Assembly: GCA_903887845.1 (NCBI GenBank)
Contig: CAISRC010000025.1
Coordinates: 1 to 43,406, forward strand
Direction of reading: 5' to 3'
From: an uncultured Chlorobiaceae bacterium
Lineage (GTDB): Bacteria; Bacteroidota; Chlorobiia; Chlorobiales; Chlorobiaceae
Length of the DNA stretch: 43,406 nt
Below are positions 17,202 through 23,129 of the stretch, one piece after another (within the stretch, counting starts at the first letter, position 1; each line of letters begins with the position of its first letter). The notes beneath the pieces are model-generated. The model was not told the origin of the DNA. It ran no database searches and saw nothing but the letters and a program-made list of their open reading frames with translations. The position numbers and the translations under genes are program-made.

Positions 17202-17504
17202 TCATACCTCGTAATCGATAATTCTCCGTTCTTCACTGGCGTCCCCGGTAAACGGCTTTATTATTTCATGTTCTGGATTTACCTGATACTCTGCGAGAGC
17301 TTTCCTGTCAATAAATTCACTATACAATACCACATCAGCAGAACTATCAGTAAGGCTGAAATCTAATCCCACTTCAATAGCCGTCATCCCGGGAATTCTT
17401 CCCTTGAGTCCCAACAGCTTTTCCTTGATAAGAGAAGCATTAGTTTGCTTGTCATTGCCATGAGCAACATCCTTAAGCCGCCACATCACGATATGCTTGA
17501 TCAT
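17202..17504 (-). CDS. Dabb (stress-responsive alpha/beta barrel) domain protein
   Basis: A 100-residue single-domain protein beginning MIKHIVMWRLKD, the signature of the dimeric alpha/beta barrel (Dabb) family, with the later AEYQVNPEHEIIKPF segment also typical. Family members are found in plants and bacteria; most bacterial ones have no known substrate. I place the start at the ATG at 17504; the upstream in-frame extension lies inside the carboxypeptidase gene. The start overlaps the carboxypeptidase C-terminus by 32 bp in another frame, so the two are likely coupled. Confidence 0.85.
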   Translation of the reverse strand: MIKHIVMWRLKDVAHGNDKQTNASLIKEKLLGLKGRIPGMTAIEVGLDFSLTDSSADVVLYSEFIDRKALAEYQVNPEHEIIKPFTGDASEERRIIDYEV

Positions 17505-18747
17505 TATTGCAAATTTGGTTAGAGGGTACAATGGGTTTTAAGAACAGAGTCAGGGCAATTTTCTTTTTTGTTTTCCTGGCCGGTTTTGATGCAACAAGTT
17601 CATGCTTTTTCGACTTCCGGCTGTTCTTTTGATCAGCGATCACCTGCTTCTTCGTCTTGCTGCTGTTCTTCTGCCCGGCAATTTCCTGCTTCTTCGACTT
17701 GCTGCTGTTCTTCTGCCCGGCAATTACCTGCTTCTTCGTCTTGCTGCTGTTCTTCTGCCCGGCAATTTCCTGCTTCTTCGACTTGCAGCTGCTCTTCTGC
17801 CCGGCAATTTCCTGCTTCTTCGACTTATGAATTGCTGTTGCCGGAGCAAATGTTTCTGATCGACTTTGTGCCTGAGCAACAAGACGCCCGGAAAGAGCTG
17901 ATTCGGGATTTAGTACTCGGTTAGTAAATGCCATGTCGAACAAGTTCGCAGCAACATTCCATCGGTCGGTTTTAGCATTCAGCATCACGAGGAGAATATC
18001 CTTGTCATCTTTTATCGCTCTGGCAATCAAACACCCGCCAGCCCTGGTTGTATAACCGGTCTTGATACCAACAGCATAAGGATATTTATCAAGAAGCTTG
18101 TTGTGTGTTCTCAGACAATATACTTTATGAGTCGTCTGCTCCATAAAAACGGCTTTCTCAAGGCGGGCGACCTGGTTAAACACGGGATTCTTTACTGCAT
18201 ATTCCGTAAGCCGTAAAAGATCCTCTGCTGTCGATATATTGCCCGCATAAATGCCTTTATCAAAACCGGCCGGGTTGGTAAACCGGGAATTTTTCATTCC
18301 AATCATCTTTGCCTTATAGTTCATGGAGGCAACAAACGAATCAATATTACCTGAAAGATATATCGCTATGGCAAATGCCGCATCGTTGCTTGAATTGACC
18401 ATAGCCGCCTTAACAAGATCGACAAGCTTGATTTTATCACCCTGTCTAAATCCTGCTTTAGAGGGCTCAACCATCGTCGACTCTTTTGTAATAAGCACAT
18501 CCTGATCCATTCGGCCACTTTCAATCGCCATGATACAGGTTAGTATCTTGGTCAGACTGGCCGGAGAAACTGGTCTGTCGATATCTTTGGCCATCAATAC
18601 TTTGGAACTTCCTGTTTCCTTGACGATATAGGAGTTTATTTGAACCTGAGACTGTAGTGAATCATCTCTTGTTTGCGCATGCAGGAAGAGAGGAACGATC
18701 ATGGCCGTAATGACGACAAGAACAGCGATGAGCGTTGATTTTTGCAT
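17473..18747 (-). CDS. D-alanyl-D-alanine carboxypeptidase (S11) with repeat tail
   Basis: Low-molecular-weight penicillin-binding protein that trims the terminal D-Ala from peptidoglycan stem peptides in the periplasm. With the ATG at 18747 (424 aa) it starts with a signal peptide (MQKSTLIAVLVVITAM, cleavage near LHA-Q at 24). Active-site motifs: SLTK (S64-K67), SSN (119-121) and KTG (229-231). The PBP5-type C-terminal domain is missing. From residue 308 it has five tandem 14-residue lysine-rich units (KSKKQEIAGQKNSS type), a degenerate sixth and a basic end. The tail has no amphipathic anchor of the PBP5 kind; a strongly cationic tail could bind teichoic-like, nucleic or lipopolysaccharide anions (inference). 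The upstream in-frame extension to 18831 is basic and unlikely. Confidence 0.92.
   Translation of the reverse strand: MQKSTLIAVLVVITAMIVPLFLHAQTRDDSLQSQVQINSYIVKETGSSKVLMAKDIDRPVSPASLTKILTCIMAIESGRMDQDVLITKESTMVEPSKAGFRQGDKIKLVDLVKAAMVNSSNDAAFAIAIYLSGNIDSFVASMNYKAKMIGMKNSRFTNPAGFDKGIYAGNISTAEDLLRLTEYAVKNPVFNQVARLEKAVFMEQTTHKVYCLRTHNKLLDKYPYAVGIKTGYTTRAGGCLIARAIKDDKDILLVMLNAKTDRWNVAANLFDMAFTNRVLNPESALSGRLVAQAQSRSETFAPATAIHKSKKQEIAGQKSSCKSKKQEIAGQKNSSKTKKQVIAGQKNSSKSKKQEIAGQKNSSKTKKQVIADQKNSRKSKKHELVASKPARKTKKKIALTLFLKPIVPSNQICNNDQAYRDVAA
17617..17826 (-). repeat. Five 42-bp tandem repeats inside the carboxypeptidase gene
   Basis: Units at 17826-17785, 17784-17743, 17742-17701, 17700-17659 and 17658-17617, each encoding 14 residues. 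Units 2 and 4 encode the same S...E form, units 3 and 5 a T...V form, so the array also shows an 84-bp higher-order period. A degenerate sixth copy (17616-17575) and a partial seventh follow. In-frame unit number changes would lengthen or shorten the tail without a frameshift. Confidence 0.95.
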
Positions 18748-18985
18748 AATCAAATCAGTGAGCTTCCTTTTTGTACGGAAGACCTGTTTCCGTGAACGGG
18801 AAATCGCGGATATCAGGATGTGATGTGGCATGGGTGGAATATAACTGTTCTTTTATTTCAAGATATAAGATAATGACTTACCTCATTCTCAATAAAGGAA
18901 TCCCAAAGAACAAATTGAAACCTTTCTTAATCTTTTTTAAAAAAAAATGTCATGCAAAGGTTTTTGAACTTCGAGCATAGCCTCT

Positions 18986-20300: not shown

Positions 20301-23129
20301 ATGATTGATTCATTCAAGCCCGATGATCCGCTTTATGCCAGCCAATGGCATCTGTCGATGATTGGCCAGTTGGGTTATGGAACCGGAAGCACACCTTTTT
20401 TGGGGCTCGAAAGGGTGTGGACTGACTACCGTGGACAGGGGATCAAGGTCGGGATATGGGACTCCGGAGTACAGAAAACCCACTGGGATCTTAATGCTAA
20501 CTACGACTCCAGCCGCCAAGTAACAATTTCCGGCACACTGAATGATGGCCAGCCGCTGACATCTTCAGATGGTCATGGAACATCAGTCGCCGGTCTTATT
20601 GCCGCTGAAAATAACGGTCTGGGCGGTGTTGGTATTGCATTTGAGACCAAAATTACCGCTATTCGTATTTTTGGAGGCAAAGATGACATCAACTCGGCAT
20701 GGTCGCGCTACCTGCTGACGCTTGATAGTCTTGGTCAATTTGATGTCACCAACCACAGTTATGGCGGATACCCTGATTTTACATCATCTGGCGATATTGT
20801 AAAGTTTGCCAATGCTTCGGTTAACGGCCGGAATGGACTTGGCACAATCAATATCAAATCGGCTGGCAACAACAATATTGACGGCAACGGAGATGCGCTG
20901 GATGCTTCCCGTTACACGGTAACTGTCGCAGCTCTTGACAGCACCGGAAAAGTCGCTTCGTATTCAACATACGGTGCCCATATCCTTGTGGCAGCACCAG
21001 CAGGTTCAGTGACAACCGACCTGCTGGGCACAGGAAAGGGCTATGACGGCCTGTTGAACAACGATTACACTGATCAATTTGGCGGCACCTCTGCGGCAGG
21101 CCCTGTAACTGTTGGTGTGGTAACACTGATGCTCAGCGCCAACAATACACTCGGCTGGAGAGATGTGCAAAACATACTTTCCTACTCTTCAGTCGGTGCC
21201 GGAAGCCTTTACGGCGGCCCAAAGACAAACGAAAATTTGTCATGGAAATGGAGCGGCGCCGACAACTGGAACGGTGGCGGACTGCATTACAGCGAAGACT
21301 ATGGATACGGCTTGATCAATGCGTTCAATGCTGTACGAATGGCTGAGATATGGAATATTCTGAATCCGAACGCAGCTACCTCGAAAAATGAATCCGTTGC
21401 CACGGGCACCTTTCAGACAGCTAAACCTATAGCAGATCTGGCGACAACAACCTATTCATTCAGTGTCTCACAGAATGTCAGTCTTGAACACGTTGACCTG
21501 ACACTCAATCTGACCCACTCGAATTTCACCAATCTTCGAATAAGCCTGATGTCGCCTGATGGCACAACAATGAGTCTCTATAACGGCAGCACAGGTACCG
21601 CTTCAACATCAGACTACGGCCTGAGCTACACCTTCGGTATTGATGGACTGCGTGGCGAGTCAAGTTTTGGCACTTGGACATTGCAGATTCAGGATGTCGT
21701 AAAGAGAGATTCCGGCACACTGAATTCTGTTGCTTTCAACGGCTATGGATCGACCGTCACGAACAATGATGTTTATCACTACACTGACGAAGTACTGACC
21801 GTTCTGGCTGCATCAGGTCAATCATCACGCTTGACACTTTCAGACACCAATGGGGGAACAGACTGGATTGACGCCGCAGCGATGTATCGTAATCTTGATC
21901 TTAACCTTAATGAAAACCATTCGTCAACACTGGCCGGAACAACCTTTCTCACCATTGCTTCAGGGACGCAGATTGAGAACGCAATCGCCGGTGATGGCAA
22001 CGATCAATTGACCGGCAATGCCGCAGACAATATACTGGACGGCATGCGTGGTGATGATATCATCTACGGCATGCTCGGCAACGATACACTGGACGGAGGC
22101 AGCGGTTCAGATACGGCTGTTTTTGCAGGTTCTAAGGAGGCTTACACGTTCACTGCGAGCAACGGCATAACTCTTGTATCAGGTCCTGACGGTAACGACC
22201 AGCTAACCAACTTTGAATACCTCCAATTCGCTGACCGCACAATTCCCGACCCATCAGTGAGCGTGACACCAGTCGACACGACTCATCCCATGCTGTTGAG
22301 CTTTTCACCGACAGACAATACCTCGGCCGTTGCGGTCAGCTCAAACATCGTGCTGACCTTCAATGAATCGGTACAAGCTGGCTCCGGCGCTTTCAATATT
22401 TACGATGCCAAAGGCATACTCTGGAAATCAATCAGCGCATCTGACACGACACAGGTAACTATCTCACACGATACGGTCGCCATCAACCCTGCCGATAATC
22501 TTGCCGATGGCAGTAACTACTATGTGTTGGTCGAAAGTACTGCTATCAAAGACCTTGCGAGCAATAATTTTGATGGCATATCGGATAAAACAACCTTTAA
22601 TTTTGAGACAGCTTTCAACTTCACCACGATCAACGGTACGAACAGAACCGACAAATTGAATGGAACTGCCGGTGATGACCACATCTACGGTCTTTCCGGC
22701 AATGACACGCTGAACGGCAACGCCGGAAATGACCTCCTCGACGGAGGAATCGGCAACGACACGCTCAACGGTGGAACTGGCAACGATACGCTCATTGGCG
22801 GTATCGGTTCAGACCACTTCCGATTTGATAGCGTGCTGAATGGCTCAACAAATGTCGACGCGATCAACGATTTCACGCTAAACACTGATAAAATTGAGCT
22901 CGAAAACGCTATTTTCAAACTATTGAATAAAACAGGTGCGCTGTCTGCAGCAAACTTCCATGAAAGTGCCGATGGGACAGCCACTCATCCAAATGACTAC
23001 ATCCTCCACAACACCACAACCGGCGCGCTACTCTATGATGCCGACGGAAGCGGCCCCGGTTTAGCTGTACAGTTTGCAACATTGATTGGTGTACAATCGG
23101 TTACGGCAGCCGATTTAATAGTGACCTGA
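20301..23129 (+). CDS. Subtilase with P-domain, Ig-like and RTX repeats
   Basis: A 942-residue serine protease of the kexin/proprotein-convertase-like S8 group, predicted to be exported by type I secretion: no N-terminal signal, calcium-binding RTX repeats at the C-terminal half. Catalytic residues D54 (GIWDSGV), H92 (DGHGTSVAG), oxyanion N190 (AGNN) and S264 (GGTSAAGP) are intact. A P-domain follows (about 365-482; NLRISLMSPDGT). A first RTX block (about 563-604), an SbsA/Big_5-type Ig-like domain (about 658-770; TFNESVQAGSGAFNIYDA) and a second RTX block (790-838) come next. A serralysin-like end (DHFRFDS...INDFTLNTDKIEL) closes it. No transporter genes are adjacent. The ATG at 20301 has only a weak AGAGAAAA site. 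Confidence 0.92.
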   Translation: MIDSFKPDDPLYASQWHLSMIGQLGYGTGSTPFLGLERVWTDYRGQGIKVGIWDSGVQKTHWDLNANYDSSRQVTISGTLNDGQPLTSSDGHGTSVAGLIAAENNGLGGVGIAFETKITAIRIFGGKDDINSAWSRYLLTLDSLGQFDVTNHSYGGYPDFTSSGDIVKFANASVNGRNGLGTINIKSAGNNNIDGNGDALDASRYTVTVAALDSTGKVASYSTYGAHILVAAPAGSVTTDLLGTGKGYDGLLNNDYTDQFGGTSAAGPVTVGVVTLMLSANNTLGWRDVQNILSYSSVGAGSLYGGPKTNENLSWKWSGADNWNGGGLHYSEDYGYGLINAFNAVRMAEIWNILNPNAATSKNESVATGTFQTAKPIADLATTTYSFSVSQNVSLEHVDLTLNLTHSNFTNLRISLMSPDGTTMSLYNGSTGTASTSDYGLSYTFGIDGLRGESSFGTWTLQIQDVVKRDSGTLNSVAFNGYGSTVTNNDVYHYTDEVLTVLAASGQSSRLTLSDTNGGTDWIDAAAMYRNLDLNLNENHSSTLAGTTFLTIASGTQIENAIAGDGNDQLTGNAADNILDGMRGDDIIYGMLGNDTLDGGSGSDTAVFAGSKEAYTFTASNGITLVSGPDGNDQLTNFEYLQFADRTIPDPSVSVTPVDTTHPMLLSFSPTDNTSAVAVSSNIVLTFNESVQAGSGAFNIYDAKGILWKSISASDTTQVTISHDTVAINPADNLADGSNYYVLVESTAIKDLASNNFDGISDKTTFNFETAFNFTTINGTNRTDKLNGTAGDDHIYGLSGNDTLNGNAGNDLLDGGIGNDTLNGGTGNDTLIGGIGSDHFRFDSVLNGSTNVDAINDFTLNTDKIELENAIFKLLNKTGALSAANFHESADGTATHPNDYILHNTTTGALLYDADGSGPGLAVQFATLIGVQSVTAADLIVT
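21987..22110 (+). repeat. First RTX nonapeptide block
   Basis: Encodes GDGNDQLTG-, ADNILDGMRGDD- and LGNDTLDGGSGSD-type nonapeptides (residues about 563-604). These bind calcium in the parallel beta-roll of secreted RTX proteins. Confidence 0.85.
22665..22815 (+). repeat. Second RTX nonapeptide block
   Basis: About five consecutive GGxGxDxLx nonapeptides (residues 789-838, such as GNDTLNGGTGNDTLIGG). The underlying DNA repeats a cggcaatgacacgct-like core with drift, so the repeats are old. Confidence 0.9.

Follow-up and report, generated by a model that had tools for sequence, protein, structure and literature searches.

The window, that is, the whole stretch of DNA analysed here (43,406 nucleotides), comes from a genome of the genus Chlorobium and carries on its minus strand, at 17473-18747, a gene for a protein of 424 residues predicted to be a D,D-carboxypeptidase or endopeptidase of family S11. 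The Peptidase_S11 profile (PF00768) matches residues 32-260 with an E-value of 1.9e-48 and 165.5 bits against a curated cut-off of 27.6, and the active-site motifs SxxK (S64-K67), SxN (S119-N121) and KTG (K229-G231) are invariant in 25 aligned sequences. The top Foldseek match of the structural model is Bacillus subtilis DacB (PDB 3mfd, E-value 7.7e-22), which is also its nearest relative among solved structures, with 153.5 bits in the sequence comparison and 38-39% identity when the folds are aligned; sequence homology to it ends near residue 275. All NCBIfam equivalogs score far below their cut-offs, the best being that of the PbpG/PBP7-type D,D-endopeptidases (PRK11669, 99.7 bits against 294), while the DacA equivalog reaches 76.7 bits against 694.

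The protein opens with an export-type hydrophobic segment (residues 1-24, MQKSTLIAVLVVITAMIVPLFLHA, 18676-18747) which is kept in relatives and is a putative signal, of presumed type, by which the enzyme is probably exported. An in-frame ATG upstream, at 18831, adds 28 residues (MPHHILISAISRSRKQ...) to give a product of 452 residues; since these residues resemble the N-termini of L034, L050 and L051, the true start may lie at 18831 rather than 18747. The catalytic domain (residues 32-275, 17923-18654), modelled mostly with confidence up to residue 277, is followed by a non-repetitive linker of low model confidence, delimited on the translation (residues 276-307, 17827-17922). No PBP5 C-terminal domain was found in the protein by Pfam, and residues 278-424 are without confident structure, in agreement with an earlier note on this DNA, which had described a D,D-carboxypeptidase from which that domain is absent. 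The PbpG/PBP7 family also lacks the PBP5 C-terminal domain, and we know of no basic repeat tail in it.

Comparison with the relatives indicates that the last part of the frame (17473-17532) is an extension beyond the usual stop. Its final 32 bases (17473-17504) lie within the downstream neighbour, a gene on the same strand for a Dabb-domain (stress-responsive A/B barrel) protein (17202-17504, PF07876, E-value 1.8e-21), whose ATG precedes by 29 bases the end of the final sense codon in the S11 gene. Six species, including the source of the window, share this overrun; where the Dabb start can be recognised in other relatives, the S11 stop lies upstream of the Dabb gene and a gap separates the two. 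The overlap with the Dabb gene thus shapes the final residues of the S11 protein. Elsewhere in the window, 20301-23129 encodes a large subtilase, probably a protease secreted by a type I system, which carries a proprotein-convertase P-domain, Big_5, RTX calcium-binding repeats and a serralysin-type C-terminus.

The 42-bp array within the S11 gene

TRF places a period-42 array at 17595-17826 (5.5 copies, score 345), the top tandem repeat of the window. Its identity at lag 42 is 0.905 against a maximum of 0.417 among 200 shuffled windows, by which a chance repeat is ruled out as its origin. The copies stand head to tail inside the coding frame and the unit length is divisible by three, as expected of an in-frame minisatellite. 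Five units of 42 bp, each encoding 14 residues, occupy 17617-17826 and read on the minus strand, in order, KSKKQEIAGQKSSC (17785-17826), KSKKQEIAGQKNSS (17743-17784), KTKKQVIAGQKNSS (17701-17742), KSKKQEIAGQKNSS (17659-17700) and KTKKQVIADQKNSR (17617-17658); the source genome being a draft assembly of 144 contigs, a miscount of units is possible, though an array of 210 bp is within the span of paired short reads. Two antisense Cys-rich open reading frames on the plus strand (17568-17924 and 17602-17859) mirror the repeat in different reading frames and were rejected as genes.

The units had been described as five near-perfect in-frame copies with alternating S..E and T..V forms and an 84-bp higher-order duplication. 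All five are in frame and the first four are near-identical (0-4 base differences, units 2 and 4 being identical), but unit 5 differs from them at 8-11 of 42 bases (74-81% identity). The alternation is found in units 2-5 and not across all five, the order being E,E,V,E,V. The identity of units 2 and 4 makes an 84-bp duplication plausible, though weakly supported, because identity at lag 84 (0.905) is no higher than at lag 42. The description of the tail as strongly cationic is borne out by 21 K/R against 4 D/E in the 70 residues of the five units. In the protein the repeats extend beyond the interval 17617-17826 first assigned to them, because two degenerate units follow at 17533-17616 with the genus-wide C-terminal cap KKHELVASKPARKTKKKIAL; K388 and K392 of this segment fall in invariant columns.

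Occurrence and conservation of the tail in the Chlorobiaceae

The source genome contains a single S11 gene, as do 80 of the 86 Chlorobiaceae genomes, while the gene was detected in none of 12 genomes of other Chlorobia families and gave only weak matches elsewhere in the Bacteroidota sample. Since the gene is single-copy in the family and undetected in the other Chlorobia families, its acquisition at the base of the Chlorobiaceae is suggested. The comparison across phyla was confined to the Bacteroidota, and Prosthecochloris genomes were not recognised in the sample.

Orthologous S11 frames were read to the stop codon in 76 species, one genome per species, and a tail of more than 60 residues was taken to define a tail-bearing enzyme. 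A tail of 89-214 residues is present in 64 of the 76 orthologues and is strongly basic in 60 of these; L070 and L072, missed by the motif filter and hence outside the 64, have basic tails too. A strain-specific oddity is thereby ruled out. All matches of the repeat motif in the 31 genomes searched lie at the S11 gene and none on other proteins, and the tail from the window has no other good match within its own genome. The DacB sequence likewise has no match to it, and a search of the open-access literature yielded nothing on such a tail.

The tails are conserved in charge and in spacing. The K+R fraction is 0.253 +/- 0.032 (SD) and is uncorrelated with GC content (rho -0.10, p 0.43) over a range of 39-61%, while the Lys share of the basic residues drops as GC rises (rho -0.39, p 0.0015), with Arg taking over; therefore it is the charge that is kept and not the residue. 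When the six species with clear DNA arrays are set aside, 39 Chlorobium tails, which share ancestry and so are not independent, have a K/R autocorrelation maximum at lag 14 (0.377, z 25) with a further peak at lag 28, and their hydrophobic residues also recur at lag 14 (z 19 against composition shuffles); the lag-14 K/R peak is weaker in 19 Chlorobaculum-type tails (z 7). Genus-wide, the consensus of the unit is about L-K-S-(S/G)-R-K-S-K-K-H-x-(L/I/V)-A-x, and the pooled unit consists of a basic cluster followed by a hydrophobic patch of three residues (positions 12-14, 54-85% hydrophobic); the units are accompanied by a conserved cap, SKPVRKNKKxV. Most of these non-array tails retain little DNA identity at lag 42. 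Simulated neutral decay to equal DNA identity leaves a periodicity of 0.07 (K/R) and 0.09 (hydrophobic) against the observed 0.42 and 0.35, a margin which is indicative, as the simulation assumed uniform mutation and a single starting unit.

Selection, unit turnover and loss of the tail

The median dN/dS over 18 pairs of related species is 0.33 for the tail and 0.07 for the catalytic domain, and dN is higher in the tail, the tail values being drawn from alignments of repetitive sequence in which unit turnover inflates both rates. K/R sites of the tail stay basic in 90% of comparisons, the highest value of all residue classes. Tail lengths change by whole units: the source species of the window and its 93%-identical relative L003 differ by exactly four units of 14 residues, and the pairs L021/L027 and L014/L029 by exactly one each. 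The proposal that copy number varies without frameshift thus holds between species, where the constant copy number named by the earlier note as evidence against its reading is not found. In each of the six array-bearing species the units are homogenised to a form particular to that species.

The tail is absent from 12 species (L079, L080, L081, L083, L084, L087-L092 and L097), which form one clade in the catalytic-domain tree (100/100 support) nested among tail-bearing Chlorobium, and thus represent one clean loss. An absence of the tail from orthologues, which the earlier note had also named as evidence against its reading, is seen in this one clade. The branch leading to it in that tree is long (0.47 changes per site), which suggests that the constraint on the enzyme changed along with the loss of the tail. 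In four Chlorobaculum-type species (L093, L099, L101 and L104) most of the basic repeats are gone and the tail has a low net charge (+9 to +12), and a segment like YARRAxALEALRLKV is retained. Since 12 species are without the tail and four have a weakly charged one, the tail is evidently dispensable in some settings.

These observations bear on the possibility that the tail is a neutral minisatellite, a low-complexity product of slippage after the catalytic domain tolerated as harmless. The homogenisation of units by lineage, the variable unit number, the elevated dN and the complete loss in one clade would all fit such an origin. However, the charge is held over a 22-point range of GC, the 14-residue period lies far above the level left by neutral decay, dN/dS is about 0.33 with the K/R sites best kept, and most species have kept the tail, all of which make the neutral explanation unlikely. 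The tail, which the earlier note had described as given by the minisatellite, is no local oddity of that origin and is, on the comparison of the orthologues, an old and selected feature of the Chlorobiaceae S11 enzyme. Since the tail of 14-residue units is old and its units are homogenised separately in the species that bear arrays, the 42-bp minisatellite is the latest local re-amplification inside it.

Probable role of the tail

The reading preferred here, with a probability of about 0.5, is that the tail is an exported, disordered and polycationic electrostatic tether which would hold the S11 enzyme to anionic surfaces of the wall or membrane. The suggestion of the earlier note that the tail could tune binding to anionic wall or outer-membrane components is in line with this reading. 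The Escherichia coli enzymes PBP5 (DacA) and PBP6 share with the Chlorobiaceae enzyme the S11 fold, the SxxK, SxN and KTG motifs and an extension at the C-terminus with a possible role in localisation. They differ in having a beta-rich C-terminal domain and an amphipathic membrane anchor, whereas the Chlorobiaceae enzyme is without the beta domain and its extension, a polycation built of repeats, has no predicted structure and is probably not an amphipathic helix. Once deprived of the C-terminal anchor, E. coli PBP5 is still active on sacculi but is mislocalised and does not correct cell shape (PMC2909392). Because the anchor is needed for placement and not for activity, and because the tail is basic and without confident structure in the model, the tail is read as a tether that may serve the same end. 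A mechanistic parallel is offered by the mycobacterial surface protein HBHA, the lysine-rich C-terminal repeats of which bind the polyanion heparin (PMC3293801); protein and repeat are unrelated to the Chlorobiaceae tail, and the likeness is one of mechanism only.

In the AlphaFold model, built on a 25-sequence alignment, the S11 domain is confident, while from residue 278 onward no confident structure is predicted, with pLDDT of about 33-48, values below 50 from such an alignment being weak evidence for disorder. The tail might alternatively be a peripheral membrane anchor, the hydrophobic patches and basic clusters entering the interface of the inner membrane as a structural analogue of the PBP5 amphipathic helix. 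PBP5 and its relatives do use a C-terminal membrane anchor, and in each unit the hydrophobic patch adjoins the K/R clusters, but the patches are only three residues long, the model contains essentially no helix in the tail, and the helical hydrophobic moment is near the shuffled level (mean z 0.73, with z>2 in just 20% of tails), a helix-based comparison beyond the reach of which a non-helical interfacial anchor would lie. An anchor of this kind is accordingly judged improbable. Recruitment of a protein partner, in which the units would be short linear motifs docking a specific protein of the divisome, elongasome or outer membrane, could account for the regular motif, its positional pattern and the conserved cap; yet conservation is mainly of charge class and spacing, and unit sequences turn over freely between close species, so that this explanation is given little credence. 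That the tail is a propeptide or is trimmed after export, leaving a tail-free mature enzyme, is very unlikely too, for although dense K/R sites would be cleavable by trypsin-like proteases and tail-less orthologues exist, a discarded tail would hardly be expected to show selection on charge along its entire length.

As a tether, the 14-residue units would build a long, intrinsically disordered, polycationic C-terminal tail on the exported enzyme, and its multivalent electrostatic contacts would keep the otherwise soluble catalytic domain near anionic envelope surfaces, with peptidoglycan carboxylates, anionic membrane lipids and lipopolysaccharide as candidate polyanions. The tail would thus do by charge the job of the C-terminal amphipathic anchor of E. 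coli PBP5. Slippage or unequal exchange at the 42-bp period would add or remove units, changing length and net charge stepwise without frameshift, and unit turnover would re-homogenise the units within each lineage.

One tail-less genome, G025, is tentatively taken by us to be Chlorobium (Pelodictyon) luteolum DSM 273. According to a review, C. luteolum DSM 273 belongs with vibrio-shaped species that require about 1% NaCl, and C. ferrooxidans with the freshwater rods (PMC8232776); the latter bears a tail here (L052/L062). Tail loss, itself a single event, may thus be associated with salt or cell curvature. Neither of two osmolyte markers separates tail-less from tail-bearing species, because the OtsA-type trehalose synthase (PF00982) is absent from the Chlorobiaceae and the only two genomes with BCCT transporters are from another family; nor is there a relation between tail loss and how acidic the catalytic domain is. 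A more speculative and rather doubtful extension of the tether reading is that the tail is a new envelope-tethering module replacing the S11 amphipathic anchor, in which the number of units acts as a charge dial open to evolution, and that it was lost in the clade that seems to include the salt-requiring, vibrio-shaped Chlorobium species as salt weakens tethering or as enzyme placement shapes the cell.

In E. coli, what S11 enzymes do to cell shape depends on where they are placed. If the tether reading is true, a polycationic repeat tail would be another way of placing an S11 enzyme, found on the only one that the green sulfur bacteria possess. The tail may also serve as an example of a minisatellite renewing a functional disordered tail with spacing and charge kept. 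The natural occurrence of tail-bearing and tail-less relatives makes the role of the tail directly testable, including the link of its loss to salt or cell curvature.
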